A DNA stretch of 33,507 nucleotides from an uncultured Opitutia bacterium (GTDB lineage: Bacteria > Verrucomicrobiota > Verrucomicrobiia > Opitutales > Opitutaceae), in assembly GCA_903830425.1 (NCBI GenBank), contig CAIKTR010000136.1, positions 1 to 33,507 on the forward strand, given 5' to 3'. Numbering within the stretch: position 1 is the first letter of the stretch; each line of letters starts with the position of its first letter. Below are positions 7,918 through 31,567 of this stretch, in pieces. Below the pieces are notes generated by a model. The model was not told where the DNA came from. It did no database searches and saw only the letters and a program-made list of their open reading frames with translations. The translations under genes and the position numbers were made by a program.

Positions 7918-7940
7918 GCGCGTGGTCCGGGGGCGCCGGC

Positions 7941-14017: not shown

Positions 14018-14136
14018 CCGGCCGGCCGGTCCCGACGTTGCCGGCCCGGGGCCGGCGCTACAAGCCCGCCGCGGGCCGCCGGCGGGGGGCGCAGTCTGCG
14101 CTGGAACCCCCGCGGCCGGCGGCGCAGGCTGCCGCC

Positions 14137-15057
14137 ATGAACCCCGCCGCGCCCCGCGAACTGAAGCTCGGCCTGATCGGCCTCGACACGTCGCACGTGC
14201 TCGTCTTCGCCGACACGTTCAACAACCCCGCCTCGAAGCAGGCGCTGCCCGGCGCGCGCATCACCGCGGCGTGGCCGGGCGGCTCGCCCGACCTGCCGGC
14301 GAGCAGCAGCCGTCTGGCGGGCTACACCGCCGAGCTGCGCGACAAGTTCGGCATCGCGATCGTGGACAGCCCCGAGGCGGTGGCCCGGGCCTGCGACGCG
14401 ATCCTGCTCACCTCGCTGGACGGCCGCACGCACCCGGGGCAATTCGCGCGGATCGCGCCCCTGGGCAAGCCGGTGTTCATGGACAAGCCCTTTGCCGTGA
14501 GCACGGCCGACGCGAAGGCCATGTTTGCCCTGGCCGAGCAGCACCACGTGCGGCTGTTCTCGGCCTCCTCGCTGCGCTTCACCGAGGCGCTCGTGCGGGT
14601 CGTCACGCCCGAGACCAAGGCCCTGGTCAAGGGCGCGGACTTCAGCGGCGCCGCGGCGCACGAGCCGACCAACCCCGGGCTCTACTGGTACGGCATCCAT
14701 GCCGTGGAGATGCTGTACACGGCCATGGGCCGCGGGTGCCGCAGCGTGCGCTGCGTCTCGTGCGGGCCCACCGACCTCGTGACGGGTGTGTGGGCCGACG
14801 GCCGCATCGGCACCGTGCGGGGCAGCCGCACGGGCAACTACGAGATGCACGGGCTGGTGCACTTCGAAAAGTCCACCGTGGCGGTGAACGTGCAGACCCA
14901 GGCGAAGCCGTTTTACGCCAGCCTGGCCGAGGCGTGCCTGGCGTTTTTCCAGGGCGGGCCGGTGCCGATCGACCCCGCCGAGACCATCGAGATGATGCGC
15001 TTCATCGAGGCCGCCAACGAGAGCAGCGCCCACGACGGCCGCGAAGTCCTCCTCTGA
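14137..15057 (+). CDS. Gfo/Idh/MocA-family oxidoreductase
   Basis: 306 residues from ATG 14137; the upstream 33 in-frame codons are Arg/Ala-rich and rejected. The N-terminal Rossmann start reads LGLIGLDTSHV (11-21), a variant of the usual GxGxxG. The EKP motif appears as MDKPFA (115-120), and the conserved catalytic-region histidine is in YWYGIHAVEM (His188). The C-terminal part forms the substrate-binding sheet. It probably oxidises or reduces a sugar or sugar derivative with NAD(P) in the cytoplasm. It is followed 60 nt later by the GH36-like glycosidase on the same strand, suggesting co-transcription and a shared substrate. The DTSH variant of the nucleotide motif makes the cofactor less certain. 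Confidence 0.85.
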   Translation: MNPAAPRELKLGLIGLDTSHVLVFADTFNNPASKQALPGARITAAWPGGSPDLPASSSRLAGYTAELRDKFGIAIVDSPEAVARACDAILLTSLDGRTHPGQFARIAPLGKPVFMDKPFAVSTADAKAMFALAEQHHVRLFSASSLRFTEALVRVVTPETKALVKGADFSGAAAHEPTNPGLYWYGIHAVEMLYTAMGRGCRSVRCVSCGPTDLVTGVWADGRIGTVRGSRTGNYEMHGLVHFEKSTVAVNVQTQAKPFYASLAEACLAFFQGGPVPIDPAETIEMMRFIEAANESSAHDGREVLL

Positions 15058-15117
15058 GCGGCCCCCGCGTCCCCGGCTCGTTGAGCCCCCGTCCCACCCC
15101 CCCCCTTGCCTAACCCC

Positions 15118-17523
15118 ATGCACCTCGCACTGCGCGCCGGAAAAATCACCTTCACCGCCGGCCCGTTTGTCCTCGGCCCGGGCGCGCCCGCGCTGCAGGT
15201 CGACGGGAAAAAGCACCCGCTCCGCGCGGTCGCGGCCCCCCGGGGCCGCGCCGTCTGGCGCAGCGCCCGGGTCGAGCTGGCGCACGCGTTCACCCACGAG
15301 ACGAAGCGCCGCCTCCGCGTCACCAGCACCCTGCGCAACACCGGGCCGGGGCCGCTCACGCTCAACGCGGTCGTGCTCTTCGCCACCTCCCGCCTGGGCC
15401 TGGGCCCCCAGCCCGAGGCCGTGCGCATTCTGGAGCAGGCCTCCTACCTGGGCCGGGTGCGCACGCCGCGGCAGATGCGGACGGGCAGCGACCAGCAGAC
15501 CGCGCTCGACGGCACGACCGGGGCGTTCACCAGCCAGATGCACACCCTGTTCTACAACCCGGCGGCGCGTCAGGGGCTGCTCCTCGGCTTCGAGACGGTG
15601 GACCGCTGGCTGCCCAATTTGGCGGGGCGCATGTTCCTGTCGGCCGGGCGCATGGCCTCCGGCACCGACAACGTTGACGCCGGCCGCGCGGGCCAGGCGC
15701 CGGCTGGCGGGGCGGAGTCCGCCGCCCCGGCCAAGATCCCGGCCTTCCGCCGGTTCACGATCGATTTTGACGGCGGCGACCTGCTCGTCGCGCCCGGGGA
15801 AACCGTGGCGCTGGGCGACTGGGTGCTTGAGCTCGGGGCCGACCCGCTGGCGCTGCTCGACGCGCACGGCGCGCGCATCGCCCGGCGGAACCGCTTTGCG
15901 CCGCCGCCGGGCCCGCTGGCCAACTGGTGCAGCTGGTATCCCTACCGGCTCGGCGTGACCGAGGGGCTCGTGCTCGCCACCGCGCGCGCCGCCCGGGCGC
16001 GCCGCCTCGACCAACTCGGCCTGCGCTTCCTGCAGGTCGACCTCGGCTGGGAGAAGGACAACATCCCCTCGTTTTTTGAGGAGAACGAGCGGTTCGCGCA
16101 GGGGCTCGCCTGGCTCAGCCGCGAGCTGCGCCAGGAGCACTTCGACCTCGGGGTGTGGGTCGGCGTGCTCTGCATCGCCTCCACCCACCCCGTCGCGCAG
16201 GAGCACCCCGAGTGGCTGCTGCGCGGCGCCGACGGCCAGCCCCACAACTGCTACAACTGGTTCTGGGCGCCGTTCTGCCCGATCTTCGCGCTCGATGTCT
16301 CGCACCCCGGCGCGCAGCAGTGGCTGCGGGAGAACTTCACCGGGCTCGCGAAAAAAGGCGTGCGTTATGTGAAATGGGACTTCGCCGGCGTCGGCACGCA
16401 CCCGGACCTGCGCGGCCGGCACGACCCGCGCCTCGTCAACACCCGCGCCCGCGAGGCGGTGCGCACCGCCTTCCGCATCGCGCAGACGGCGCTCGAGTCG
16501 CAGGGCGAGCCGGCGCTGATGATGGACTGCTCCGGCACCGACTCCGCCGCCGCCGGCATCGCCGGGCTCAGCTACGCGAACATGGACACCGGCAACACCG
16601 GCCTCGGCTGGCGCCACCTGCGCGAGATCTACACCGCCTACGCCTGCCACCTGTTCAAGCACCACTGGGCGCTGCTCCAGCCGTCCTGCCTCGTGGTCGG
16701 GCTCCCCGGCACGCTGGAGGAGGCGCGCCTCCGCGCCACGGTCACCTTCATGGGCGCCGGCCACGTGGACCTCGGCGACGACCTCACCACCCTGCCCGAG
16801 GACCGCTGGGCCGTGCTGCTCGCCACGCTGCCGCCCAACGACACCCCGGCCCGGACGGTGGACCTCTTCGAGCCCATCGCCACCGGCACGCTGCCCTACC
16901 TGGCGCTGATCAAGGAACAGCCGCCCGTGCCGCCCCGCCTCAGCCCCGATCCCGAGGGGGCCTGCGTGTGGACGCTCCCGGTGAAGGCCGACTGGGACGA
17001 GTGGACCCTGGTGGCGTTTTTCAACTGGACGGAGCCGCCCGTGGAGGAGGGCTCCAAGGTCAACCTCGCCCGCCGCTACCAGGTCGCCCTCACGCGGCTC
17101 GGCCTGCCGGCCGCCGCCCGGCTCTGGGCGTATGAATTCTGGTCGGGCCAGTTCCTCGGGGTGATCCCCCGCGCCCAGCTGCCCGCGTCCGCCTACCGGC
17201 ACCCGGGGGACTTTGCGCACCCGATCCAGGCCTCGGGGCCCGGCTGGCTGGACATCGGGTTCCACGGCCCGGCGGTGAAGCTGCTGGTGCTGCGCCGGCC
17301 GCGCCCGCATCCGTGGCCGGTGGGCACGAGCTTCCACCAGAGCGGCGGCCGCGAGCTGTCCGGGGTCCGCTGGGACCCGCGGACGCGCACGCTGTCCGGC
17401 CAGCTCCTCCGGCCCGAAGGCGAGACCGGGTTCATCATGATCGCCGGGCTGCCGGACGGCGCCGTGCACCGGCACCCGGTGGCGGCCACCGCGGCCCGCA
17501 CCGCGTGGTCGGTGCGGCTGTGA
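15118..17523 (+). CDS. GH36-like alpha-galactosidase-type glycoside hydrolase
   Basis: 801 residues. An N-terminal beta-sandwich part (about 1-250) precedes a TIM barrel with NWCSWYPYRLGV, FLQVDLGWEKD, GVWVGV, then VRYVKWDFAG, where Asp421 is the expected nucleophile. LMMDCSGTDSAAAG (about 467-480) sits in the acid/base region. A C-terminal beta domain follows from about 610. This matches clan GH-D (GH36/GH27), which hydrolyses alpha-galactosides. The usual CxSGGxR acid/base loop is altered, so substrate and even activity are not certain. No signal peptide is present, which suggests cytoplasmic action on imported oligosaccharides. Start: ATG 15118 is preferred; a TTG at 15106 follows a run of nine C and is an alternative. 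It is convergent with the AraC gene, 7 nt apart. Confidence 0.82.
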   Translation: MHLALRAGKITFTAGPFVLGPGAPALQVDGKKHPLRAVAAPRGRAVWRSARVELAHAFTHETKRRLRVTSTLRNTGPGPLTLNAVVLFATSRLGLGPQPEAVRILEQASYLGRVRTPRQMRTGSDQQTALDGTTGAFTSQMHTLFYNPAARQGLLLGFETVDRWLPNLAGRMFLSAGRMASGTDNVDAGRAGQAPAGGAESAAPAKIPAFRRFTIDFDGGDLLVAPGETVALGDWVLELGADPLALLDAHGARIARRNRFAPPPGPLANWCSWYPYRLGVTEGLVLATARAARARRLDQLGLRFLQVDLGWEKDNIPSFFEENERFAQGLAWLSRELRQEHFDLGVWVGVLCIASTHPVAQEHPEWLLRGADGQPHNCYNWFWAPFCPIFALDVSHPGAQQWLRENFTGLAKKGVRYVKWDFAGVGTHPDLRGRHDPRLVNTRAREAVRTAFRIAQTALESQGEPALMMDCSGTDSAAAGIAGLSYANMDTGNTGLGWRHLREIYTAYACHLFKHHWALLQPSCLVVGLPGTLEEARLRATVTFMGAGHVDLGDDLTTLPEDRWAVLLATLPPNDTPARTVDLFEPIATGTLPYLALIKEQPPVPPRLSPDPEGACVWTLPVKADWDEWTLVAFFNWTEPPVEEGSKVNLARRYQVALTRLGLPAAARLWAYEFWSGQFLGVIPRAQLPASAYRHPGDFAHPIQASGPGWLDIGFHGPAVKLLVLRRPRPHPWPVGTSFHQSGGRELSGVRWDPRTRTLSGQLLRPEGETGFIMIAGLPDGAVHRHPVAATAARTAWSVRL

Positions 17524-17538
17524 GCGGCGCTCAGCGCC
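17521..17538. terminator. overlapping palindromes at the GH36/AraC convergent stops
   Basis: TGAGCG-G-CGCTCA (17521-17533) spans both stop codons, and GGCGCT-C-AGCGCC (17526-17538) overlaps it. Loops of one base cannot close, so the real stems would be a pair shorter. They may help end transcription of both genes, but no T tract is present. Confidence 0.35.
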
Positions 17539-18349
17539 GGGCGCGCCGCCAGCGGCCGGGGGTGACGCCGGCCACGGCCTTGAACTGGCGGTGGAAGAAA
17601 TACACGTCGGTGTAGCCGAGGGACGCGGCGATCTGCTCGAGGCTCATGGCCGACTCCGCCATCAGGCTGCGGGCGCGGTCGACCCGGGCGCGGATGACAA
17701 ACTCACGCGGGCTCAGCCCGGTCAGCCCGCGGATCCGCCGGGCGGTCTGGGACACCGAGAGGCCGGCCCGGGCGGCGAGGCCGGGCACGGTCCAGGCGGC
17801 CCCGGGATTTTCCCGCACCGCCAGCAGCGCGGCGGCGAGCATGGAGCGATCGCTCCGCGTGGCGGGGGCCTGCGCGGACTCGTGCAGGGTGAGGAGGATG
17901 AGGCGCAGCGCGAGGTCGCGGCGCAGGCGGCCGGCGGCCGTGTCGGCCGCGCCGCCCTCCACCACCTGCCGGGCCAGCGGCTCCAGCGTGGTGAGGTCGC
18001 TCACCACCACCGGCATGGCCGGCAGGTGCAGGGCGGTGGCGGCGAGCGGGCGGCCGGCGGCGTCCAGCAAGTCCGCGTGCAGATAAAACACCCGCAGCCG
18101 GCGCTGGGGGTCGTGGGTGGCGGCCAGCGCCGCGCCCGGCGGGAGCAGGAGGCAGGAGCCCGGCCCCAGGGCCAGCGCCGGCCCGCCGATCGACGCGGTG
18201 CCGACCCCGTCGAGCACGCACCACAGGAGAAAGTCCGCCAGCCGGTAGGGCTTGAACTCCCAGACCGGCTCGCAGCGCACGATCCCCGCCAGACCGTTGA
18301 GCCGCCACCGGCCCGCGGCGGCGGCCTCAGCCAAGGTGATAGCAGTCAT
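17531..18349 (-). CDS. AraC-family transcriptional regulator
   Basis: 272 residues from ATG 18349 (an in-frame ATG at 18385 would add 12 residues and run through the likely promoter). The N-terminal half has cupin-like sensor features: CEPVWEFKPYRLADFLLWCVLDG and ALGPGSCLLLPPGAAL, then a strand with RVFYLHADLL. The C-terminal double helix-turn-helix includes WTVPGLAARAGLSVSQTARRI and YTDVYFFHRQFKAVAGVTPGRWR, the conserved second-helix signature. It probably binds a sugar and activates the divergently transcribed PhyH gene and perhaps the nearby catabolic operon. It is divergent from PhyH over a 71-nt AT-rich region. Confidence 0.92.
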   Translation of the reverse strand: MTAITLAEAAAAGRWRLNGLAGIVRCEPVWEFKPYRLADFLLWCVLDGVGTASIGGPALALGPGSCLLLPPGAALAATHDPQRRLRVFYLHADLLDAAGRPLAATALHLPAMPVVVSDLTTLEPLARQVVEGGAADTAAGRLRRDLALRLILLTLHESAQAPATRSDRSMLAAALLAVRENPGAAWTVPGLAARAGLSVSQTARRIRGLTGLSPREFVIRARVDRARSLMAESAMSLEQIAASLGYTDVYFFHRQFKAVAGVTPGRWRRARR

Positions 18350-18363
18350 GCATGATAAGTGCA

Positions 18364-18413
18364 AAAATAGGCTCAATGCGTCCATTTAAAACTGCCATCA
18401 GTCCTGCTATGTT
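18364..18413. promoter_or_regulatory. divergent AraC/PhyH promoter region, possibly giving leaderless or near-leaderless mRNAs
   Basis: Rightward: TTTAAA (18385-18390), 17 bp, TATGTT (18408-18413), then the PhyH ATG 7 nt later, which would put the RNA start at or next to the A of ATG. Leftward: TATTTT (complement of 18364-18369) lies 14 nt before the AraC ATG at 18349; the self-complementary TTTAAA is 15 bp upstream and could serve as a poor -35. The stretch is strikingly AT-rich for this genome. Confidence 0.5.
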
Positions 18414-18420
18414 ATGCGCG

Positions 18421-19332
18421 ATGGACACAAATACCCCCGCCCTGTACGACGTCCTCCCCGAGCAGCCCGACGCCGACCTGGTCGCGCGCTACCGGGAGGA
18501 AGGTTATCTGGCCTTTCGCCAGGTGCTGACCCCGGAGGAGGTGAAGGCCGCCTCCGACGGCATCAACCAGCTGGTGCACAAGTACGCGTTCAACGACGCG
18601 CTGTCCGAGCGCATCTACAAGGCCAAGGAGCAGAAGATGCAGAACGGCCGGGGCATGCTCTTCAAGAGCCGCACCTCGGATTTTCACTTTCAGGTGGAGG
18701 GGGATTATGAGGCGCGCCCCGACCGGCTGGATGAGCTGGCGGACAACATCCGGAAGTTCCAGTCCTACACCCAGGAGCTGCCGATCTACGACTTCATCGC
18801 CAACCGGCATCCGCGCCTGCGCGCGCTGCTGGGCGCCGTGCTCGGCCCGGACTACCAGCCCTATTCCAGCATGGCGCTGTGCAAGCCCGCGGGCATCGGC
18901 GCCGCGAAACCCTGGCACCAGGACCTCGCCTATTTCGCGGTCAACCGCTTCGACGGGGTGGCGGGGGTGTGGATCGCGCTCGACCCCGCGACGGTGGCGA
19001 ACGGCTGCATGCATGTCATCCCCGGCGGCCATCGCACCGGCCCGCGCCCGCACTACTGGTCGAAGGTCGACTGTGAAATCACCACCGAGGAGGTGGCCCC
19101 GGCCGCCGCCGTGGCGATCGAGCTGCCCCCGGGCGGGCTGATGGTCTTCGACGGGCTGCTGCCGCACGAGACGCCCGCCAACCGTTCCCCGCTCCGGCGC
19201 CGCGCCCTGCAGTTCCACTACCGCAGCGCCGCGACGCAGGTCGTCCCCCGGGAGGAATACCAGAAGAAGTTCGCCGGCCCCGACGGGCTCTTCCTCGGCT
19301 GCGACTACTCGAAGGTGGCGACCAAGGAGTGA
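18421..19332 (+). CDS. phytanoyl-CoA dioxygenase (PhyH) family Fe(II)/2-oxoglutarate oxygenase
   Basis: 303 residues from ATG 18421; the in-frame ATG at 18352 falls in the promoter region. The iron-binding facial triad is visible as PWHQDLAYF (His166, Asp168) and LLPHETPANRS (His249), with Arg residues in PLRRRALQ (259-261) placed to bind 2-oxoglutarate. YREEGYLAFRQVLTPEEVK at the N terminus is typical of the family. It should hydroxylate a small organic substrate using O2 and 2-oxoglutarate in the cytoplasm; the substrate cannot be read, and bacterial members act on very diverse compounds. Neighbours suggest a sugar-derived or sugar-linked molecule. It is controlled, probably, by the divergent AraC gene and is convergent with the OppC-type permease (15 nt gap). 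Confidence 0.9.
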   Translation: MDTNTPALYDVLPEQPDADLVARYREEGYLAFRQVLTPEEVKAASDGINQLVHKYAFNDALSERIYKAKEQKMQNGRGMLFKSRTSDFHFQVEGDYEARPDRLDELADNIRKFQSYTQELPIYDFIANRHPRLRALLGAVLGPDYQPYSSMALCKPAGIGAAKPWHQDLAYFAVNRFDGVAGVWIALDPATVANGCMHVIPGGHRTGPRPHYWSKVDCEITTEEVAPAAAVAIELPPGGLMVFDGLLPHETPANRSPLRRRALQFHYRSAATQVVPREEYQKKFAGPDGLFLGCDYSKVATKE

Positions 19333-19347: not shown

Positions 19348-20478
19348 TCACCGGTCGCTGTACGGATCCGCGGCGTCGCGCAGCGCGTCGCCGGCGAAGT
19401 TGAACGCCAGGATCGTCAGCACGATGAACAGCACCGGCGAGAGCAGCCAGGGATAGTGGCCGACCGTCTGCAGGTTCTGGCAGTCCTGCAGCATCACGCC
19501 CCAGCTCACGATCGGCGCGCGCAGGCCGAGCCCGAGAAAGCTGAGCACCGTCTCGCCCAGGATCATGCCCGGCACGCCGAGGGTGAGCGTCACGATGATG
19601 TGGCTGGTGAAGCCCGGGACGAGGTGGCGGAACAGCACGCGCGCATGGGAGGCGCCGAGCAGCCGCGCGGCGACGGCGTAGTCCTCCTCGCGCAGCGCGA
19701 GGATCTTGCCGCGCACCACCCGCGCCAGGCCGGTCCAGCTGATGAGGCTGAGCGCGACCGTGACGCAGAAGTAGACGGTCAGGGGGGACCATTCCGCGGG
19801 GAAGATCGCGCCGAGGGCCAGCCAGAGCGGGAGCTGGGGCAGGGCATTGATGATCTCGATCACCCGCTGGATGAGGTTGTCCCACCCGCCGCCGACGTAG
19901 CCGGAGAGGCCGCCGAGGGTGACGCCGAGGCCGAAGGTGATGAGGATGGAGATCAGGCCGACCGAGAGGCTGATGCGCGCCCCGTAGATGAGCCGGCTGT
20001 AGACGTCGTGGCCGTACTTGTCGGCGCCCATCAGGTAGAAGACCGTGCCCGCCTCGTCGGCCCGGCCCTGGGCGGCGAGCGCGTCGCGGTTCACGCCGAA
20101 GAAATGCCGCTCGAGCGGCACGAGGTTCCACAGCCGGTAGGGCTCGCCGCGCACGAGGAACCCGAGCGGCACCCGCCCGCGCTCGTCGACGGTGTAGTGG
20201 CGGGCGAAGGTCACCGGATCATCGTAGCGCTGCATCCGGTGCACGTAGAGGCCGTCGCGCAGGGAGAAATGGATCGGCTGCGGCGGGCAGTAGGAGTAGG
20301 CGAGGTTGCGCCAGTTCCGGGTGGTGGGGGCGAAGAACTCGCAGCCCAGGGCCAGCGCATAGAGCACGACGAGCAGGAAGAACGCCGCCAGCCCCAGCCG
20401 GTGCCGGGCAAAGCGCCGCCGCGTGAGGTCCCACGGTGAGCTGACGGCCTCGGTCCGGGGCGGGGCGTCCGCGCTCAT
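19348..20478 (-). CDS. ABC importer permease, OppC/DppC/YejE type
   Basis: 376 residues from ATG 20478. The N-terminal cytoplasmic tail has SPWDLTRRRFARHRLGLAAFFLLVVLYAL, the usual OppC opening with TM1. A periplasmic insert of about 100 residues follows, containing LGFLVRGEPYRLWNLVPLERHFFGV and YLMGADKYGHDVYSRLIYGARISLSVG, a known feature of larger OppC/YejE proteins. Five more helices follow, with the coupling helix EEDYAVAARLLGASHARVLFRHLVPG (EAA loop). It pairs with the OppB-type half of the fused protein to form the inner-membrane channel. The ATG overlaps the stop of the upstream fusion gene by 4 nt (20475-20478), so translation is coupled. It is the last gene of the operon; no ATPase gene follows. 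Confidence 0.93.
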   Translation of the reverse strand: MSADAPPRTEAVSSPWDLTRRRFARHRLGLAAFFLLVVLYALALGCEFFAPTTRNWRNLAYSYCPPQPIHFSLRDGLYVHRMQRYDDPVTFARHYTVDERGRVPLGFLVRGEPYRLWNLVPLERHFFGVNRDALAAQGRADEAGTVFYLMGADKYGHDVYSRLIYGARISLSVGLISILITFGLGVTLGGLSGYVGGGWDNLIQRVIEIINALPQLPLWLALGAIFPAEWSPLTVYFCVTVALSLISWTGLARVVRGKILALREEDYAVAARLLGASHARVLFRHLVPGFTSHIIVTLTLGVPGMILGETVLSFLGLGLRAPIVSWGVMLQDCQNLQTVGHYPWLLSPVLFIVLTILAFNFAGDALRDAADPYSDR

Positions 20479-23400
20479 CGGGTGCCGCCTCCCAGCCGGA
20501 TGCGCGGGTCCAGCCACAGCAGGACCAGGTCGCTGACGAGGGTGCCGAGCACGCCGAGCACGCTCAGGATCATGAGCAGGGACGCCGCGAAGTTGGTGTC
20601 CTCGTTGAGCAGCGACTGCAGCAGCACCGGGCCGATGGTGGGCAGGCTGAGCACGAGGGCGACGATGGCGCCGCCCGAGACCAGCTGCGGGAACAGGGCG
20701 GCGAGGCTGGAGGCGAAGGGGTTGAGCGCCAGGCGCACGGGATACTTGAGCAGGAGCTTGAGCGGGCGCACGCCCTTGGCGCGGGCGGCGACGACGTAGG
20801 GCTGCTTCAGCTCGTCGAGGAGGTTGGCGCGCATCACGCGGATCATCACCGCCGTGCTGCCGGCCCCGAGCACGACCACCGCCACCCAGACGTGCTGCAG
20901 CAGGTCCCCGACCTTGCCCCAGGACCAGGCTGGGTCGGCCATGTAGCGCACGCTGAAGAGCCCCGACACGCTGAGGTGCAGGTACTCGCTGCTGGCGTAC
21001 ATCAGCACGAGGGCGAAGAGGAAGGGCGGCACGGACATGCCCACGAAGCCCACCAGCGTGAGCACGTAGTCGCCCCGCGTGTAGGGCCGGACCGCCGAGT
21101 AGATGCCGATGGGCAGCGCCACGGCCCAGGTGAAGAGCATGGTGAGGACCGAGATGACGACGGTGAGGAGGATGCGGTCGCCGAGGATTTCGTTCACCGG
21201 CAGGTTGTTTTCCATCGAGCGGCCGAGGTTGCCCTGCAGCAGGCCGGTGTCGGCGGGGTCCAGGGTTCCCAGCCAGTACAGGCCCAGCCAGCGCGAGTAC
21301 TGCTGCCAGCCCGGCTCATCGAGGTGGAAGTTCTTCCGGAGGTCCGCGAGCTGCGCCGCCGCGTTCGGGTCGCCGTTGAGGGAGAGCTCGGCCGTCTTGG
21401 CGGCGACGAAGTCCCCGGGCGGCAGCTGCACGAGGGTGAACACGATGACCGAGGTGAGGAGCAGGGTGGGGACGAGGGTGAGCAGCCGGCGCCCGATGAA
21501 CGGGTGGCGCAGCACCAGCAGCACCCCGGCCAGCCCGGCCGTGAGCCCGAGGCCCCAGGCGAGCAGCCGGCCGCCGCCGGTGGCCCCGCCGCCGGCCGGC
21601 GCCCCGGCGGTCGGCAGCTTCGAGGGGTGGTCGAGGGAGGCCGTCAGGCGCGCCACCACCGCCGGCGAATCATTGGGGGTGTCCCAGAAATAGGTTTCCA
21701 TCCCGGTGTTCCCGGGGGTCATGAAGAAAAACCCGGTGAGCGCCCCGTCGGGCACGTTGTGCAGGCCGTCCTGCACCGCCACGAGCGCCGGGGGCGGGGT
21801 GGCGACGCTGATGCTCCAGACCTGCTCGGCGGCGATGTCGAGGATCTCGCGGAACCGGGCGAGGCGGTCCGCCTCGGTGGCGGCGGTCTGCGCGCGGTCG
21901 TACAGCTCCATCGCCCGCCGGGCCGGGTGGCCCGGCGGCGGCGCCTCCATCCCGGGGAGGTCCGCCTCGGGGCGGCCGCGCAGGCCGCCGGCGGAATACC
22001 AGCGGCCCCAGGCCGGCGCGAAAAAGGAGGAGCCGTTGATCGGCGCGTAGTAGCGCGGGTCGAGCATGGGCATGAACTCCTCCAGGCCCGTCCAATAGGT
22101 GAAGTCGTGCTCCAGCGCGGCCTGCTCCACCTGCCAGAGGGCGCGCGGGTGGACCTGCACGAGGGCGCGGAGCCCCACCCGGGACCACTGCTCCGCGATC
22201 ATCTGCGCCGTGTCCGGCAGGTAGAACTCCGCGAGGTTGAGGAACCACGTCATGCGCGTCCCGTCCGGAAAGGTGCGGAACCCCTCGGGGTCGCGCTGCG
22301 CCAGGCCGAGGGCGTCGAGCATCCGTCCGGCCCGGGCGGGGTCGTAGGCCGTGAAGCTGTGGAAGTGGCCGGCGTGGCCGTAGGGCGACCCCGGCCCGGG
22401 GGAGTTCTGCGCCGGCTCGCCGACGCCGTTGAAGACCGCCGCGATGATTTCCGGGCGGTCGACGGCGAGCGACAGCGCCTGCCGGAAGGCGGGGGCGTTG
22501 AGCAGCTGGTGCTTCCACCGGCTGGCGGGGTCCCCCGGGTGCACGCGGTGGTTGAGGTTGGGGCTGAGCTGCGCCCAGGTGCGCGTGGCGTTGAACCAGT
22601 GGAGCAGGTGGTAGCCGCGGCGCGGCGCCTCGCTGGCGAGCAGGGTGTAGTCCTCGAAGTCGATGTGCCGGTCCTGCATCGAGAGCTCCCCGCCGGCAAT
22701 CGCGGCCGAGATCATGGCGCGGCTCTTCACGTCGAAGAGCACGCGGTCGAGGTAGGGCAGCTGGCGGCCCTGGGGGTCGACCGCGAAGTAGTACGGGTTG
22801 CGCACGAACCCCTGCGGGGCGGCGGAGCGGTAGTCCGCGTAGATCCACGGCCACATGCGCGGATGCTCGGGGTTGCAGCGGTTGACCAGGCGCTCGTAGA
22901 CCGACTGCCGGCTGGGCAGGTTCAGCGCCTGCATGGTCCGCGCGATCAGGGCCGGGTCGCCGAGGGCCGGGTGGTAGGGCCGCAGGTAATGCGCCGGCCG
23001 GAAGCACTCCACCGCGCTGGCCAGCTTTTCCAGGAACAGGGTGTGGGGATCGTCAAAGCTGAAGCGCACCGTCAGCGGGTCCACCGCCTCGATGCGGCCG
23101 ACCCGGCCCGCATGCTGCATGAACGCGTAGTTGTTGAGGCCATGGCTGTTCGACTTGAAGTACAGCGCCTCCCACTGCCACCAGAAGAGGATGTCGGCGG
23201 TCGTGAACGGGTGGCCGTCCGACCAGCGCAGGCCCGGGCGCAGCGTGACGGTCCAGACCCGCCGGTCGGGCGAGGCGCTCCAGGACTTGGCGAGATGGGG
23301 CACGATGGGGTAGCCCTGCGGCGACCAGCGCACCAGCGCCGCGTACGACAGCCGCGAGGCGAGCACGCCCTCGATGTCCTCGGTGTCCGTCCCCAGCCGG

Positions 23401-23798
23401 TGCCAGGTGCCGCCGTAGCGGCCGGTGGCGGTCTCAAGTCCCGCCAGCACCACCGGCTCGGGGCCGGTGCGCTCGGCGACGGGCGGCAGCCGGCCGGCGC
23501 GCACCAGCGGGGCGAGCAGCGGCGGCTCGCCCTGGGGCCACCAGGCGCCCCGCGGGCCCTCGGCGTAGTTCACGTCGCGCCAGACCTGCGGCGGCGACGC
23601 GCGGTTGAGCTGCGGATCGCGCGCCAGCCGCGCGGCGGCGGCGGCGCGCGGGTCGGGCGGCACGGGCGGGCGGCCGAGATCCGGCCGGAAAAACGCCGCC
23701 GTGGCCAGCGCCAGGACGGTCAGCCCGAGCGCCGCGCCGACGCAGCCGGCGGCAAAGGTGAGGGCGAGGCGAAGCGGACGGTGACCGGGGCGGGGCAT
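20475..23798 (-). CDS. fusion of family-5 solute-binding protein and OppB-type ABC permease
   Basis: 1107 residues. Residues 11-37 form an uncleaved-looking hydrophobic anchor. Residues about 110-715 are an SBP_bac_5-type binding protein: LAKSWSASPDRRVWTVTLRPGLRWSDGHPFT with the WSDGxPFTxxD motif, then FRQALSLAVDRPEII and the C-terminal lobe. A Gly/Ala/Pro linker (about 723-743) leads to a helix at 744-763, then the OppB domain: RRLLTLVPTLLLTSVIVFTLVQLPPGD, the GNLGRSM loop and five further helices. The EAA coupling helix is YVVAARAKGVRPLKLLLKYP (1001-1020). Topology fits: anchor in to out, binding domain in the periplasm, return helix, then OppB TM1 going out again. It imports peptides or oligosaccharides. 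It starts 22 nt after the dehydratase gene. Confidence 0.93.
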   Translation of the reverse strand: MPRPGHRPLRLALTFAAGCVGAALGLTVLALATAAFFRPDLGRPPVPPDPRAAAAARLARDPQLNRASPPQVWRDVNYAEGPRGAWWPQGEPPLLAPLVRAGRLPPVAERTGPEPVVLAGLETATGRYGGTWHRLGTDTEDIEGVLASRLSYAALVRWSPQGYPIVPHLAKSWSASPDRRVWTVTLRPGLRWSDGHPFTTADILFWWQWEALYFKSNSHGLNNYAFMQHAGRVGRIEAVDPLTVRFSFDDPHTLFLEKLASAVECFRPAHYLRPYHPALGDPALIARTMQALNLPSRQSVYERLVNRCNPEHPRMWPWIYADYRSAAPQGFVRNPYYFAVDPQGRQLPYLDRVLFDVKSRAMISAAIAGGELSMQDRHIDFEDYTLLASEAPRRGYHLLHWFNATRTWAQLSPNLNHRVHPGDPASRWKHQLLNAPAFRQALSLAVDRPEIIAAVFNGVGEPAQNSPGPGSPYGHAGHFHSFTAYDPARAGRMLDALGLAQRDPEGFRTFPDGTRMTWFLNLAEFYLPDTAQMIAEQWSRVGLRALVQVHPRALWQVEQAALEHDFTYWTGLEEFMPMLDPRYYAPINGSSFFAPAWGRWYSAGGLRGRPEADLPGMEAPPPGHPARRAMELYDRAQTAATEADRLARFREILDIAAEQVWSISVATPPPALVAVQDGLHNVPDGALTGFFFMTPGNTGMETYFWDTPNDSPAVVARLTASLDHPSKLPTAGAPAGGGATGGGRLLAWGLGLTAGLAGVLLVLRHPFIGRRLLTLVPTLLLTSVIVFTLVQLPPGDFVAAKTAELSLNGDPNAAAQLADLRKNFHLDEPGWQQYSRWLGLYWLGTLDPADTGLLQGNLGRSMENNLPVNEILGDRILLTVVISVLTMLFTWAVALPIGIYSAVRPYTRGDYVLTLVGFVGMSVPPFLFALVLMYASSEYLHLSVSGLFSVRYMADPAWSWGKVGDLLQHVWVAVVVLGAGSTAVMIRVMRANLLDELKQPYVVAARAKGVRPLKLLLKYPVRLALNPFASSLAALFPQLVSGGAIVALVLSLPTIGPVLLQSLLNEDTNFAASLLMILSVLGVLGTLVSDLVLLWLDPRIRLGGGTR

Positions 23799-23820: not shown

Positions 23821-24963
23821 TCACAGCCGCCCCACCGTCCGCAGGCAAGCCGCCGCGCGGCCATCCGGCTGGCCGCCCAGGCCGGGGGCCGTGGGCAGCG
23901 CCAGCACGTCGGCCGGGGGGTGCAGGGCGCGGCCCAGCAGGCTGTCCGCGAGGAATTGCGGGCCGTTGAGCGCGCAGGGCTGGGTGAGGCCGGCCCAGGC
24001 GAAGAGGTGCGCGGCGGCCAGCAGCGAGAAGTCGGGGTCGGTCAGCCCGGAGCCCAGCACCATCAGCTGGTGCGCGCGGAGCTGGTGGACGATCTGCACC
24101 GAGGGCCAGAGGCCGGCGTTGCGCGCGGGCTTGAGCGCGATGCCGTCGAGCATGCCGAGGGCGATGAACTCCGCCGCGACCTCGGGGCCGACCAGCCCCT
24201 CGTCCATCAGCACGGGCAGCGCCCCCTGCCGCCGGAGCGCCTGGTAGCCGCGGATCTGCGTGGGGGGCAGCGGGGACTCGAGCACGTCGACGCCGGCGTC
24301 GCGCAGCCGTGGGGCGATGGCCAGCGCCTCCGCCGGCGTGTAGCCGGTGTTGGCATCGGCCCAGAGAAAACCCGCGGGGGCAAAGGCGCGGACCCGGCGC
24401 GCTAGCGCCAGGTCGTAGTCCGCCGACTGGGGCGCGCCGACCTTGATGTTGAAGTTGCGGTAGCCGCGCGCGCGGCCCTCGGCCAGCTGGCGCTCGATGG
24501 TCTCGAGGTGGGGGGAGGCGACGGTCCAGCTGAGCGTCAGCGTCTCGCGGGCCGTCGCCGGCGCGCCGAAGAGCTGCCAGGCCGGCACGCCGCGCTGCCG
24601 GCCGACGAGATCGTGGCAGGCGAGGTCCAGCGCCGCCTTGCACAGCGGCTGGCCGACGGAGAAGGCCGGGCGGATCGCCGTGTTCATCGCCGCGTGCAGG
24701 CCGGCAAAGTCCGCGGGGTCGCGCCCCAGCACCACCGCCGCGAGGTGGAACTCCAGCGTGGTCAGCACGCTCTCGACCGTCTCGTAGGTCCACGAGGGCA
24801 CGGGCACGGACTGGCCCCAGCCGGCGACGCCGTCCTCGTCGGTCAGCCGGACCAGCACGGAGGGCCGGGTCACGCGGCCGTCGGGGCCGGGCTGGAAGAA
24901 CTTGAACTCGCCGGCGACCGCGTAGTCGAAGCGGCCGATTTCTACTTGGGCAATGCGTGCCAC
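23821..24963 (-). CDS. mandelate racemase/muconate lactonizing enzyme-family protein (enolase superfamily)
   Basis: 380 residues. The N-terminal capping domain covers about 1-125. The barrel carries FNIKVG with Lys174 (the first Lys of the usual KxK is Asn), metal ligands Asp203 in WADANTGY, Glu229 in LESPLP and Asp254 in LMDEG, and Lys278 in IALKP opposite the first base. This is the muconate lactonizing enzyme subgroup arrangement with a lysine on each face. Typical reactions are acid-sugar dehydration, epimerisation or cycloisomerisation with Mg2+; the precise one is not decidable. The gene context (sugar isomerase upstream, oligosaccharide-type ABC importer downstream) favours acid-sugar chemistry. 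Its first 22 nt overlap the end of the isomerase gene, showing translational coupling. Confidence 0.9.
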   Translation of the reverse strand: MARIAQVEIGRFDYAVAGEFKFFQPGPDGRVTRPSVLVRLTDEDGVAGWGQSVPVPSWTYETVESVLTTLEFHLAAVVLGRDPADFAGLHAAMNTAIRPAFSVGQPLCKAALDLACHDLVGRQRGVPAWQLFGAPATARETLTLSWTVASPHLETIERQLAEGRARGYRNFNIKVGAPQSADYDLALARRVRAFAPAGFLWADANTGYTPAEALAIAPRLRDAGVDVLESPLPPTQIRGYQALRRQGALPVLMDEGLVGPEVAAEFIALGMLDGIALKPARNAGLWPSVQIVHQLRAHQLMVLGSGLTDPDFSLLAAAHLFAWAGLTQPCALNGPQFLADSLLGRALHPPADVLALPTAPGLGGQPDGRAAACLRTVGRL

Positions 24964-25847
24964 GGGTTCAGGGCGGGGTTGCGTTGGTAGCGGGCGTGGA
25001 TTTCGCGGAGGTAGTCGATGGACCGCTTGGCGGTGAGCCAGGCGTCGCCGCCGAGGTCGTAGGCCTGCGAGATGATCGGGCCGGTGTAGCCCCGGGCCCA
25101 GAGGAGGCCGAGGGCGGCGGCGATGTCGATGTTGCCGTCGTCCAGCGGGCGGGTGCGGAAGGGCTCCGCGGGCTTGGGCCAGCCGTTGAGCACGGCGAAA
25201 TAGCCGAGGCGGTCCATCCCGGGCTGCGCCAGCACCTCCGGCAGGTCGGGCACGCCGAGGTGGAAGAACGCGTGGAAGAGCGCGAGGCCGGGGCGGATGA
25301 CCTGCGCGCCGCTCTCCTGGATGGCGCGGACGCCGGCGGCCGGCGTGTCGAGCATGAACCAGACGTGGTTGTACAGGTTGCCGCTCAGGCCGCGCCGCGC
25401 GAGGTGGGCGTCGACCTCGCGCAGCAGGTGCGCGGTGCGCTCCCAGTGGCGCGGCTCCGCCTTGGCCGAGCCGGCGTCGCGGTAGTCCGGCGTGGATTTG
25501 CCGCCGGGGTTGCTGAGGATGGTGAAGTTGACGAAGGCCTGCGGGTCGATCGCGGCGAGGCGGTCGATCATCTGCTTGGCGCGGGCCACCTCGGCGTCGA
25601 ACTGGCCGAATTCGGCGTCGGTGATGCCCTTGGACACGATGTACATGCCGGCGCGCTGGAGCCCGCTGGCCCGGAAGGCCGCCGTCGCCTCGCCCCAGGT
25701 GGCGTCGTCGCCCGGCTCGATGGGGTGAAACTCGTAGCCGTCGTAGCCGGTGTCGGCGGCGATCGCCAGGCGCGTCCGGTACGGGTACTGCCGCCGGTGC
25801 ATCACAAAGTGATTGTTGAACAGGATGAGCGGGTTGGGGAAGGACAT
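24942..25847 (-). CDS. sugar phosphate isomerase/epimerase-like TIM-barrel protein
   Basis: 301 residues, no signal peptide. Strand-helix pieces typical of the AP-endonuclease-2-like (xylose isomerase-like) fold are TRLAIAADTGYDGYEFHPIEPGDD, FRASGLQRAGMYIVSKG, GNLYNHVWFMLDTPAAGVRAIQ (with the Asn/His/Asp metal-region residues), and GYTGPIISQAYDLGGDAWLTAKRSIDYLREI at the C terminus. Such proteins isomerise or epimerise sugars or inositol derivatives with a divalent metal, in the cytoplasm. It is the first gene of the four-gene minus-strand operon 25847-19348. The 215-nt region upstream separates it from the divergent heparinase-like gene; I see no convincing promoter hexamers there. Confidence 0.85.
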   Translation of the reverse strand: MSFPNPLILFNNHFVMHRRQYPYRTRLAIAADTGYDGYEFHPIEPGDDATWGEATAAFRASGLQRAGMYIVSKGITDAEFGQFDAEVARAKQMIDRLAAIDPQAFVNFTILSNPGGKSTPDYRDAGSAKAEPRHWERTAHLLREVDAHLARRGLSGNLYNHVWFMLDTPAAGVRAIQESGAQVIRPGLALFHAFFHLGVPDLPEVLAQPGMDRLGYFAVLNGWPKPAEPFRTRPLDDGNIDIAAALGLLWARGYTGPIISQAYDLGGDAWLTAKRSIDYLREIHARYQRNPALNPWHALPK

Positions 25848-26062
25848 GCGGGCGGGGGCTGGGCGCGGGGCGGCTGGAGGGTTCCGGCGCGGGCGGTTGG
25901 CAGGTGGGCGGGGTGGGTGGCGGCGGCCGGCCGGGTCATACCGATAGGATAAACCCCGGCTTGGCGGCGCGGCGCGGAACTGGCAGCAAGAAGCCGTTAG
26001 GCAACCCGGCCTCCGTCACGAGCGAAAACTGATTCCGCGGGCCGCAACTTTTGGCTACCTGT

Positions 26063-28420
26063 ATGAAAACCACCCCGATCAACTCCGCCGAGGCCATCTT
26101 CGAGGCCTTCTTCGACGAGACGCTGAGCGGCCTGCCCCACTGGCGGATCGACCGCGGCGGCGCCGAGGGCCTGACCGTCGTGCAGAAGTGGGCGTGGGTG
26201 CAGTACGACTGGCAGCGGGCGCCGGCCGATCCGGCCGTGCCCGCGCTGCGGCTGAGCCGCGACTACGAGGTGGACTGCGCGGACTACGACGCGCTGGTGT
26301 TCTCGCTGGTGGCGCCGCCGGGGTCGCGGGTGGCGCTGATCGCCGGCACGGAGGCCGGGGAGCACCGCCGCCTGAGCGCGCCGTTTCCGGCCCAGAAGTG
26401 CGAGCTGCTCCTGCCGCTCGGCGGGGCCCGCCGGCTGCAGCGCCTGACCGTCGAGATTTACGCCGACCCCGCCCGGCCCCCGGGCAGCGCCTGCGGCTGG
26501 TTCAACTGGATCGGCCTGCAGCACGGCGCCCAGCTCCAGCGCCACCTGCGCCAGGTGGCCCGCTTCGACGACCGCTGGGCGGACTACCTCCAGCCCGAGA
26601 CCTTCACGCCCAGCTGCGAGCCCGCCTACGGCCTGCACCTGACCCGGGACGAACTGGCCGCCGCCCGCACCGCGCTGGCCGCGGCCGGCGGCCCGCGCAC
26701 CTCGCCGCTGTGGGCGCTGGCGGAGGACGCGCGCCGGCTGGTGCCGGAGAAAATGACGACCGAGTACGTCAATTTCTGGAACGACACGCGGTTCAACCGG
26801 GTGCGGGACACCGGCAACCACCTGCTGACCCACGGGGCGAACGCCGCCCAGGCGGCGGTGCTGTTCCGCGACCCGCAGCTGGGCCGGCTGGCCGCGCGGT
26901 ATGCCATCTGCATGGCGCACTGCACGCGCTGGGACCCGTCGTTCCTCAGCTGGATGACCGGCTGCAAGTGGGAGCACCGCGCCTTCGTCCCCAGCCTGGT
27001 GATGTACGACTGCGCGCTGATCCTGGACCTGTGCGGCGAGTGGTTCACGACCTACGGCCGCGAGCTCCTCCTGCGCCGCCTCGCCGAGGAGGGCCAGGGC
27101 ACGAACAACTACAACGCCTGGTGGTACACCTACATCTTCTGGTGCAACCAGACCGCCTGGTTCATGCCCGGCCGCATGTACGCCTATCTCGTGCTGGAGC
27201 GGACGCTGCCCACGCAGTGGGAGCCCTATCCCAAGCCGGTGCCCTCCCGCGTCACGCCCTACACCGACCTCGCGCTGGCCGACCTGCTCGACAACCTCGG
27301 CAAGATCCTCCTGCCCGACGGCGGCTACACCGAGGGGCCCATGTATTTCACGTTCACCGCCCGCCAGGCGCTGATCACGTTCTATTATTATGCCCGGGCC
27401 CGCGGCCTTGATCCCCGCACTCTGGCCCCGCCCGCCCTCTACGCCACTGCCATCATGGCGGAAACGCTCGTCAGCACCGCGGACGACGCGCAGATGATCC
27501 TGATCTGCGACGCGCAATACGTCCCGCAGGAAGGGGCGGCGTTCCTCGCGTGGCTGATGCCGGATTCGCACTGGGTCACGATCTTCCGCAAGTCCGTCGC
27601 CCGCACCGGCGGCCAGCCGATGACGCTGCTGGCGCAGAACCTGGCGCGCGACCTCCCGGCGGCCGGGCCGGCGTTCCGCCCGCTGGTCGACATGCCGGCG
27701 ATCGGCCAGATGGCCTCGCACCGCCGGCACGGCGGCGAGTGGGTGAAGCTCTTCCTGATGGGCAACCAGTCCGGCGCCTCGCACACCCACGAGGACAAGG
27801 GCTCGTTCGTGCTCGAGTTTGCCGGCGACAGCTTTGCCAAGGATTTCGGCAGCTGCGACTACAGCAACCCGCTCGCCGACCTGATGAAGCACTGCCAGCG
27901 GCACAACATGCTGGTGCCGCTCACGGCCGGCGGCGTGCGGCCCCGGCCGAAGAACCCGATCTTTGCCGACCTCACGCCCCGCGGCGGCGGGGACGAAACC
28001 TCGTTCCACGCCACGCTGGAGCTCGCCGCCGGCTGGGAGGGCTGGTTCGAGCGCTGGACCCGGACCTGGGACGCGCCGACCCCGGGCGAACTCACGATCA
28101 CGGACGACTGGGCGGTCGTCCAAGGCGAGGGCGTGGTGTTCCATTGGACGACCCCGCTGCCCCTCACGCTCGACGCCCCCGGCCGCCGCGCGGTGATCGA
28201 GGGCCGCCGCGGCCGCGCCACGCTGACCTGGGACGAGGGAATCGAGGCGGTCTACGAGGAGCTGCCGTTCGAGGAGGCCAGCTGGAAGGAGGTGCTGCGC
28301 GAGCGCCAGGAAGCCTACCTGGTCACGACGCTGCTCCCCGAGGTCCAGCCGCGGCTTGCGCTCCGCCAGCGCGGCCGGGCCGGCCGGCTGGTGGTGCAGG
28401 TGCGGCTCGAGCGGAAGTGA
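26063..28420 (+). CDS. heparinase II/III-like protein
   Basis: 785 residues from ATG 26063; an in-frame TTG at 26051 is less likely. An N-terminal part (1-170) is a beta-rich accessory domain. A long alpha-toroid follows (about 190-480) with WNDTRFNRVRDTGNHLLTHG and NNYNAWWYTYIFWCNQTAW, and the C-terminal sandwich opens with SHTHEDKGSFVLEFAG (about 573-588), the H-x-H-x-D-x-GSF signature of heparinase II/III-type lyases. Such enzymes cleave uronic-acid-containing polysaccharides by beta-elimination. Known family members are usually secreted; no signal peptide is visible here, so it may act in the cytoplasm on imported oligosaccharides. It is divergent from the isomerase operon and convergent with the GH38 gene with no bases between the stop codons. 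Confidence 0.85.
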   Translation: MKTTPINSAEAIFEAFFDETLSGLPHWRIDRGGAEGLTVVQKWAWVQYDWQRAPADPAVPALRLSRDYEVDCADYDALVFSLVAPPGSRVALIAGTEAGEHRRLSAPFPAQKCELLLPLGGARRLQRLTVEIYADPARPPGSACGWFNWIGLQHGAQLQRHLRQVARFDDRWADYLQPETFTPSCEPAYGLHLTRDELAAARTALAAAGGPRTSPLWALAEDARRLVPEKMTTEYVNFWNDTRFNRVRDTGNHLLTHGANAAQAAVLFRDPQLGRLAARYAICMAHCTRWDPSFLSWMTGCKWEHRAFVPSLVMYDCALILDLCGEWFTTYGRELLLRRLAEEGQGTNNYNAWWYTYIFWCNQTAWFMPGRMYAYLVLERTLPTQWEPYPKPVPSRVTPYTDLALADLLDNLGKILLPDGGYTEGPMYFTFTARQALITFYYYARARGLDPRTLAPPALYATAIMAETLVSTADDAQMILICDAQYVPQEGAAFLAWLMPDSHWVTIFRKSVARTGGQPMTLLAQNLARDLPAAGPAFRPLVDMPAIGQMASHRRHGGEWVKLFLMGNQSGASHTHEDKGSFVLEFAGDSFAKDFGSCDYSNPLADLMKHCQRHNMLVPLTAGGVRPRPKNPIFADLTPRGGGDETSFHATLELAAGWEGWFERWTRTWDAPTPGELTITDDWAVVQGEGVVFHWTTPLPLTLDAPGRRAVIEGRRGRATLTWDEGIEAVYEELPFEEASWKEVLRERQEAYLVTTLLPEVQPRLALRQRGRAGRLVVQVRLERK

Positions 28421-31400: not shown

Positions 31401-31426
31401 TGGAGGAGGGGGTTGAGGGGCAGCAT
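28421..31426 (-). CDS. GH38 alpha-mannosidase
   Basis: 1001 residues from ATG 31426; the upstream 83 in-frame codons are Arg/His/Pro-rich, overlap the LuxR gene leader and are rejected. The catalytic domain has LTGHSHLDLVWLWPEQ (about 245-260, zinc-binding HxHxD..W) and LLWLPDLFGFSACLPQLM (about 358-375), where the Asp of PDxFG is the nucleophile. HDFIPGSS and a C-terminal beta-rich region with WEWPMSRWATV and AYTGRPMASAF complete the family. It removes alpha-linked mannose with retention, using a Zn2+ or Ca2+/Co2+ centre. No signal peptide is seen, so cytoplasmic trimming of imported oligosaccharides is likely. Its TGA abuts the convergent heparinase-like TGA, leaving no intergenic base. Confidence 0.93.
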   Translation of the reverse strand: MLPLNPLLQLTPLRTQRGVARLAEVIWHDPRALRVEATATRPDHLPLAAAKKLPRRAVRDGTAWGRLYDQRWCRVALPAGGPRWLHWDEQGEATLFIDGVPFFGFDVAHRHCELPAGTREVWVESLCVQAAIWHPDAKGLNPDGNLFRGARLLRRDDAAWAAYHDLNCLYDWMVDLRAKEFPGVPRELFSQTQQPPLTDVSPLYRRLLRGLDAALDAFDTAGVAALRRRLATVYTEMRDTAPLARAALTGHSHLDLVWLWPEQVGEGKAVHTFANVNRLMAQYPEFRFAYSQPASYEAVGRRSPELHRAVRARLRSGQWEATGGMYVESDSHVACGEGLARSFILGQESFLQLSGRRSRLLWLPDLFGFSACLPQLMQLSGVDYFFTTKTTWNTVNRFPHSSFVWRGPGGHGVVSHVTQGVQFNNTLAVDQVRACVHQNQQGDLHPEVLMPNGWGDGGGGPSAELCERARRLSSLRGLPALRWDQPEAFFDRLAKKRAALPALDGEIYLEYHRGTFTTQSRVKSHFRALERALQLREAALVATRGTPGADLAHAWRRLVFAQFHDFIPGSSIPEVYAEGLPELAQLARGQTAAAAASLAPAPGGEACVFNPLPLARLAVVAGRVVDLPPLAGVRLADATVPGVAPVTVRGRTLTNGRVTARINARGQLAALRVDGRDVELLAGAGELVVYPEQPANFGPWDIDRHSLSLGQPARRPARITVQPDGVTVTRPVGAASTATVRYWLEPGASVLRLTVDLDWHEADVLVKLHFPTSYRGREVRCGTPLGSVLRPQLATTREAEAMWEWPMSRWATVSAEAERAGLFVVTEAKYGVSCRDGNLGLTLLRTQKHVGFEDHGRAYPAQLSRLGPPATVYTDLGRHTIPLALGCYDATALRAEQPAVLAETLFTPAVAYTGRPMASAFQGLTGGDTLIPHWAQPQGRDRWVLRLHEVGGQRGTARLRLAPGWTARPVNLLGAATAAPLRAGRLAFAPYQIVSLQLTRD

Positions 31427-31505
31427 CCAGGTAGTTTTCGCGCGGCGCGGCGCGGCCTGCAAACACTTCTGCGCCCCCGCGGCCGTCCGGGCGGGCCCGG
31501 CCCGG

Positions 31506-31523
31506 CGTAACAACCTTGTTACG
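31506..31523. promoter_or_regulatory. 18-bp palindrome upstream of the LuxR-type regulator (operator candidate)
   Basis: CGTAACAACCTTGTTACG has perfect 8-bp arms around a central CC, giving an 8-2-8 (or 7-2-7) layout. It ends 44 nt before the GTG start of the regulator and 79 nt before the divergent GH38 ATG. It is AT-rich relative to its surroundings. The layout matches the operator class of NarL/LuxR dimers, so autoregulation or control of both divergent genes is possible. Confidence 0.5.
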
Positions 31524-31567
31524 GTCGCAGCCTTTCCCCGGCGCCGGCGGGAAGGGAGGGTCCGCCC

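Follow-up and report, generated by a model that had tools for sequence, protein, structure and literature searches.

A family-5 receptor fused to an OppB-type permease in an Opitutaceae bacterium: a probable importer with a tethered receptor and a separately encoded ATPase pair

The receptors of ATP-binding cassette (ABC) importers are reported to tend to outnumber the permease (PMC9045158). In GlnPQ the receptor is described as covalently joined to the permease chain (PMC8025302), and in EgtUBC as tied to a permease that it follows (PMC9732360). We analyzed a stretch of 33,507 nucleotides (the window) from an uncultured Opitutia bacterium of the family Opitutaceae; it is the entire contig CAIKTR010000136.1 (C136) of a genome of 3.5 Mb in 254 contigs (GCA_903830425.1). 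A sequence-only reading of this DNA had proposed that one gene joins a family-5 solute-binding protein to an OppB-type permease. We found that this fusion recurs in the order and reaches other families of the phylum. We consider it likely that the system is a type I Opp/Dpp-type importer with a tethered receptor, an OppC partner, a motor encoded on another contig (C29) and an oligosaccharide as cargo. By its domains it would be of the Opp/Dpp kind, while the architecture and the gene distribution appear new: among the titles and abstract openings listed in searches of the open-licence PubMed Central literature, none described an OppB joined to a family-5 receptor.

The fusion gene lies 9.7 kb from the nearer contig end (Table 1). 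As proposed, a single frame of 1107 residues runs on the minus strand (20475-23798) from ATG to TGA with no internal stop, and the claimed anchor, family-5 binding protein, linker with return helix and OppB permease could all be located by Pfam, hydropathy and alignment. Pfam matched SBP_bac_5 at residues 165-566 (2e-46), BPD_transp_1_N at 767-882 (9.6e-7) and BPD_transp_1 at 894-1101 (1.5e-26). A phmmer search of Protein Data Bank (PDB) sequences gave the binding proteins 5ipw and SPH1118 as the best solved structures for residues 90-699. The OppB part (~767-1103) matched DppB/OppB-type permeases, including E. coli DppB 8z1v (8e-27) and M. tuberculosis permeases. The likely ATG of the next gene, oppC, overlaps the fusion stop in an ATGA (20475-20478), so that the claimed close coupling of the two genes is plausible. 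Coupling loops were read by eye in the OppB- and OppC-type permease halves. Lipoprotein anchoring via Cys19 was ruled out because this cysteine is not conserved across the 45 fusion N-termini.

There is a negligible chance that a frameshift or an assembly error has run two normal genes together into this frame. The genome is fragmented, and another copy (G218:C4) is broken by three stops, as an artefact of this kind would allow. However, 11 of 37 relatives carry a nearly full-length fusion, and the G005 copy is split over two contig ends. In larger samples, two candidates were scored per genome. Of 372 genomes from the order, 40 had a match of nearly full length (1e-120), spread over 27 of 100 genera; 24 of 387 genomes of the phylum sample matched at 1e-90. 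Fifteen of these 24 lie outside the order: 13 hold nearly full-length fusions, one match is cut by a contig end (G570) and one is unfused (G647). A closer search of 48 genomes recovered 57 nearly full-length single-frame copies in 41 genomes. Three further copies are incomplete (the split G005 copy, G086 cut by a contig end, and G218:C4), and our hand-made fusion table takes in all 60. In G127 one stop was reported inside the match, yet the frame is open from about residue 19. The fusion is also present in two single-contig genomes (G028 and G058), its return helix and basic loop are retained in 45 aligned fusions, and the fused OppB domains form one clade (see below). The sequence-only reading had singled out the junction as the place to look for an assembly error; the junction is conserved in relatives, with the same architecture in the order and in other families of the phylum, which rules out an artefact. 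Outside the phylum, a tblastn search of plasmid records for the fusion returned 491 records with one place covering at least 80%. Among the 12 plasmid matches listed, 11 have two annotated features and one is unannotated, and the two inspected are two genes. A junction search added nothing clear among the best 15 of 804 matches.

The order of the helices had been taken to place the binding domain outside and the permease in the correct orientation. Hydropathy averaged over the 45 aligned, distinct fusions revealed hydrophobic segments at residues 9-42 and 741-769, followed by the OppB set. A basic loop, RHPFIGRR (764-771), lies between the return helix and the first transmembrane helix (TM1) of OppB and is kept in the same 45 fusions. 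Hydropathy and charge thus fit this topology, without proving it: the binding domain would be periplasmic, between the anchor and the return helix, and OppB would therefore be normally oriented. In the same alignment the receptor and OppB parts are well conserved, and the linker (703-740) differs between fusions in both sequence and length, a variability that a cut site could show. The chain might then be a precursor, cut after synthesis into an anchored binding protein and an OppB of the normal kinds, and the fusion would be mechanistically meaningless. But the linker is followed by a conserved return helix, which would be superfluous in a free OppB, and the OppB proteins of the unfused sisters inspected begin directly at TM1. 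We consider such a cut quite improbable and retain the tethered receptor.

The fused OppB domains group together. In a quick tree of 95 OppB rows (3 of 98 were dropped: L136 for a broken frame, L053 and L117 because they are cut by contig ends), 62 fused OppB domains fell on one side of one branch (SH-aLRT, a likelihood-ratio branch test, 99). This clade sits inside unfused relatives, and its nearest relatives are unfused. At six of ten unfused junctions inspected (L163, L164, L167, L168, L179 and L094), receptor and OppB share a frame with a single stop between them, and the OppB ATG lies 1-6 codons past that stop. The others show a frame change (L152, L155, L156) or a longer gap with a second stop (L174). 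We considered stop-codon recoding in this sister lineage and rejected it: because an ATG follows so closely and the stop differs (TAG, TAA or TGA), we read the six as tightly packed separate genes. Their OppB proteins begin directly at the first helix, without a return helix. Loss of the stop alone would thus misorient OppB, and the extra return helix would therefore be the essential invention. By eye, the sister receptors of L164, L166 and L167 have a hydrophobic start, possibly an uncleaved anchor; the receptor of L173 resembles a lipoprotein, and that of Rhizobium an ordinary exported protein. A path from free to anchored to fused receptor is suggested.

Which ATPases power the fusion? Pfam detected no ABC ATPase in the window frames scanned, in agreement with the claim that no ATP-binding gene is nearby; an ATPase pair just outside the operon, which would have spoken against that claim, was likewise absent from these frames. 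The genome search that the sequence-only reading had proposed for orphan Opp-type ATPase genes yielded two sites by oligo_HPY. Inside contig C29, at 62318-64032, lies a complete OppD/OppF-like pair with ABC_tran and partial oligo_HPY matches. Scanned frames around the pair encode a GTP-binding protein, a two-component system and a TonB-dependent receptor, and C29 gave no matches to SBP_bac_5 or BPD_transp_1. Contig C176 holds a D-type gene, whose product has the usual iron-sulfur (Fe-S) cysteines, and, running into the contig end, the first part of another ATPase gene. In the C29 pair, a pattern search located Walker A, the LSGGM signature and Walker B in the D gene, and Walker A alone in the F gene, where FSGGQ and VCDE were read by eye.

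Phylogeny, the gene order of relatives and co-occurrence point to the C29 pair as the motor of the fusion. At a whole-operon locus (L067), the order is fusion-OppC-D-F, and D and F are 75% and 77% identical to the C29 genes; the order recurs in ten genomes of the order (L129-L138, with broken frames in L136). In the F tree (55 rows, with one stray long-branched row, L188), the C29 F gene falls within a clade of 38 rows (support 96); every one of the 19 fusion-adjacent rows belongs to this clade, and the 12 rows next to an unfused OppB all lie outside it. To count co-occurrence, we used an F class of 339 bits or more plus the G127 partial match, a threshold chosen after the scores were known. 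Of 40 fusion genomes, 38 have a gene of the class (G127 through a 66% partial match, the other 37 by score), as do 5 of 332 genomes without a fusion (G107, G117, G132, G139 and G207), three of which (G107, G132, G139) contain unfused relatives of the fusion system; the Fisher test on this co-occurrence ignores relatedness. Still, fusion and C29 pair are physically unlinked in the window genome and C176 also carries an Opp D-type gene and the start of a second ATPase, so the C29 pair could serve another transporter while the fusion is driven by other Opp-type ATPases, those of C176. The D and F trees, which contain C176 in neither case, group the C29 genes with fusion-adjacent ATPases and not with those beside an unfused OppB. 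Moreover, three genomes of the same genus (G008, G009, G011) keep full-tail Opp ATPases while having neither the fusion nor the short-tail pair. We find a C176 motor very unlikely and take the C29 pair as the probable one.

Some ATPase loci of relatives are built differently. In L133, L135, L192, L138 and L132 the D frame continues for ~360-430 residues past the D match, and D and F are apparently joined as one tandem ATPase protein. At the contig end of G116:C136, the translation of L132:1-73 shows a homopolymer-like run, probably an assembly artefact. In L178 (G626) the order is rearranged, with fusion and OppC between the D and F genes.

The sequence-only reading had implied a shared ATPase encoded elsewhere. 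The second half of this proposal held, given the C29 pair; sharing is suggested in some relatives with more fusions than F genes, and not in the window genome, which has one fusion and one pair. OppC directly follows the fusion in most loci. In five genomes (G017, G349, G355, G377 and G379), however, the fusion is well inside a contig without OppC, and the genome's only OppC match (1e-60) precedes D and F genes elsewhere; the same arrangement is apparent in G342, but there the fusion is near a contig end. In the single-contig genome G058, a distance of some 270 kb separates the F gene from the fusion and its OppC. The single contig of G028 has three fusions, two OppC genes and one class F gene far from all three. 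Ten genomes contain two or more fusions, and we compared their counts (fusion:OppC:F). Apart from G028, each of these assemblies is split into many contigs, so that a gene missing from any one of them carries little weight. F genes are fewer than fusions in six: G028 (3:2:1), G023 (4:3:1), G302 (3:3:1), G007 (2:2:1), G347 (2:2:1) and G037 (3:1:1). They equal the fusions in G116 (3:3:3) and in G218 (2:2:2, one fusion broken). G065 has 2:1:2 with one F beside an unfused OppB, and G194 has 3:3:0, no F gene of the class being found. G054 has one fusion and two F genes. In some relatives, several fusions seem to be served by a single ATPase pair, and at times also by a single OppC. Tentatively, the family may form plug-in importers, in which fused receptor-OppB chains are interchangeable halves that confer specificity and dock onto an engine, one OppC and one ATPase pair, that they have in common; we rate this as somewhat less than an even bet. 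Such sharing of an engine might be likened, with the same reserve, to the use of a common energy-coupling factor (ECF) module by S-components. Where OppC is operonic with the ATPases, as in part of the family, the fused gene would be the sole substrate-specific part.

Our best guess for the cargo is an oligosaccharide from an acidic or mixed glycan. We favor it over a peptide because a relative of the receptor binds pectin and because, in the genus, the gene has glycan enzymes as neighbours. Among characterised proteins, the closest relative that we found is SPH1118, which matches residues 97-698 of the binding domain (3.7e-61). It is annotated as oligopeptide-binding, and the published account has it bind pectin and hardly respond to yeast extract or tryptone (PMC9314435). 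By hand mapping, its ligand residues R466 and R496 fall on R552 and R582, which are Arg in 31 and 39 of the 45 fusions, and its R57 falls near R149 (36 of 45). We compared 16 neighbour loci, two of which (L068 and L081) overlap, and the counts are given in Table 1. An unfused five-gene operon in Rhizobium (L203, L204) has genes for KduI/IolB, GH39 and TIM-barrel proteins downstream. A rival reading, a tethered-receptor importer of the ordinary peptide kind, would fit the best NCBIfam names, which are of peptide and nickel types (Opp4B, Opp4C and others), each below its cut-off. It would also fit the oligopeptide-binding name of 5ipw and the asparaginase gene (12995-14017) that lies in the region beside glycan-type genes. 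Yet the oligopeptide-binding annotation of SPH1118 goes with binding of pectin and hardly any of the peptide mixtures tested, according to the same account (PMC9314435), which also describes 5ipw as T. maritima OppA with no peptide complex solved. Glycan-type enzymes, in turn, adjoin the gene both in the genus and in Rhizobium. A peptide importer is therefore unlikely in our judgment, and oligosaccharide remains the preferred cargo.

Table 1. Features of the window, with their support or their occurrence among the 16 neighbour loci compared
Feature	Position	Strand	Basis or occurrence
Fusion gene: family-5 solute-binding protein + OppB permease, 1107 aa	20475..23798	-	frame, Pfam; kept in relatives
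N-terminal hydrophobic anchor, residues about 9-36, no conserved lipobox cysteine	23691..23774	-	family hydropathy; N-termini of 45 fusions
Solute-binding domain, residues about 90-702, related to T. maritima OppA 5ipw and SPH1118	21693..23531	-	Pfam; phmmer against PDB
Linker, residues 703-740, variable in length and sequence	21579..21692	-	alignment of 45 fusions
Return transmembrane helix, residues about 741-763	21510..21578	-	family hydropathy; absent from unfused sisters inspected
OppB permease domain, residues 767-1101; EAA-like coupling loop ~1001-1022	20496..21500	-	Pfam; loop by eye
OppC permease partner	19348..20517	-	Pfam OppC_N + BPD_transp_1; adjoins fusion in most relatives
Asparaginase gene beside glycan-type genes	12995-14017		9/16 loci matched
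GFO/IDH/MocA oxidoreductase	14038..15057	+	10/16 loci
Melibiase-like glycosidase	15106..17523	+	8/16 loci
AraC-type regulator adjoining the cluster	17531..18385	-	0/16 loci matched
PhyH-type dioxygenase, convergent with OppC	18352..19332	+	3/16 loci
Enolase-superfamily enzyme (MR/MLE)	23821..24963	-	Pfam; 10/16 loci
Xylose-isomerase-like TIM barrel protein	24942..25847	-	Pfam; 11/16 loci
Weak heparinase II/III C-terminal match, 23.3 bits (below the 24-bit cut-off)	26051..28420	+	7/16 loci
GH38-type alpha-mannosidase	28421..31675	-	7/16 loci

The window also contains a tripartite ATP-independent periplasmic (TRAP) transporter set at 6064-9961, made of a fused DctQ-DctM (6064-8064), a DctP (7941-8960) and a T-component protein (8957-9961). 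A chemoreceptor with a nitrate/nitrite-sensing NIT domain is encoded at 836-2686.

Several results weigh against parts of the joint reading. On the side of topology, an AlphaFold prediction with four sequences gave no usable model (mean predicted local distance difference test score, 34.8), so that the proposed topology rests on hydropathy. As to the cargo, the whole-operon locus L067 and the loci L069 and L083 have no glycan neighbours. At farther loci, 108 neighbour proteins (a selection, some long frames being left out for size) included 5 GFO oxidoreductases, 4 TIM barrels and 3 LacI regulators among the 25 families listed; the others are mixed or housekeeping, and the cargo signal across the family is weak. 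The SPH1118 residues R438, N53, N324 and D483 fall on E524, E143, T405 and W569, and its stacking W594 falls on F690, a position that is aromatic (Y, F or W) in only 18 of 45 fusions. The TIM-barrel and glycosidase proteins of Rhizobium gave no BLAST matches to the window enzymes. As to the motor, two fusion genomes, G158 and G194 (~370 and ~560 contigs), have no F gene of the class, and the class is impure: two of its genes (G065:C167, G139:C305) are beside an unfused OppB.

Finally, neither C29 ATPase has the C-terminal cysteines with which E. coli DppD and DppF bind a [4Fe-4S] cluster; in those proteins the cysteines are reported to be required for assembly (PMC12136057). The same report describes M. 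tuberculosis DppD as likewise devoid of the Fe-S domain, so the missing cysteines do not exclude membership in the Opp/Dpp group. The tail is absent from the orphan D and F genes at L071:4319-6033 and relatives; many fusion-linked relatives retain it. The motif is present in D genes in 17 of 20 rows beside a fusion versus 5 of 19 unlinked rows; the motif-less L176 is end-cut, and the motif of D-F tandem rows may be that of F. In the D tree the tail was seemingly lost at least twice. We examined whether tail loss is tied to separation of the ATPases. The raw counts suggest it, but independent pairs on the tree gave no support (three pairs, with 0.0 on average going the same way), and we thus claim no such link.

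Taken together, these results lead us to propose that the 1107-residue protein supplies the receptor and OppB, one half of a type I Opp/Dpp-type ABC importer. The return helix would lead the chain back to the cytoplasmic side, where OppB starts in its normal orientation. The fusion would pair with the OppC of the next gene and be powered by the OppD/OppF-like pair of C29. The receptor may dock onto its own or a neighbouring permease pair, and cargo would pass as in type I importers; an oligosaccharide from an acidic or mixed glycan would be imported for use by the enzymes encoded nearby. With receptor and permease in a single chain, every importer would carry its own receptor at high local concentration, with no free excess. 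A fixed stoichiometry and a raised local concentration are thus reasonable, if putative, consequences of the fusion: it would give up the excess of receptor and gain proximity and a fixed ratio. If this is right, the family provides a natural Opp-type importer with a fixed receptor:permease ratio, in which separate and fused receptors can be compared within one lineage, and a case of specificity halves and motor encoded apart. It would become testable what an importer gains or loses when it abandons an excess of free receptor, and how far an ATPase pair is shared, with or without OppC. A likely 'peptide transporter' annotation would also move toward glycan uptake.

How does the system compare with known ones? 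Like OppABCDF and DppABCDF, it combines a family-5 binding protein, OppB and OppC permeases and an OppD/OppF-like ATPase pair. Unlike in Opp/Dpp systems, the receptor continues through an extra helix into OppB instead of being free or lipid-anchored, and in the window genome the ATPase genes are apart from the permeases and the pair has no Fe-S tail. The tie between receptor and permease chain recalls the one reported for OpuA. However, GlnPQ, OpuA and EgtUBC belong to other receptor and permease families, whereas the Pfam and NCBIfam matches of the fusion are of Opp, Dpp and Nik types; in contrast to EgtUBC, the family-5 receptor of the fusion (~600 residues) precedes OppB. SPH1118 of Sphingomonas sp. 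A1, whose gene is reported to be adjoined by Opp-like genes (PMC7055323), is related across the whole binding domain but is a free periplasmic protein, and its ligand residues align with the fusion in part only. The Rhizobium operon has the same gene order, SBP-OppB-OppC-ATPase-ATPase (SBP, solute-binding protein), with identities in L203 of 31% (SBP), 51% (OppB) and 48% (OppC). It differs in that its receptor and OppB genes are separate, 102 bases apart, and that its ATPases lie inside the operon and have the Fe-S cysteines. In the sugar importers of Streptomyces that use MsiK, and in ECF transporters, the motor is encoded apart from several specificity modules. The fusion system may work like these, a functional likeness between systems of different families.

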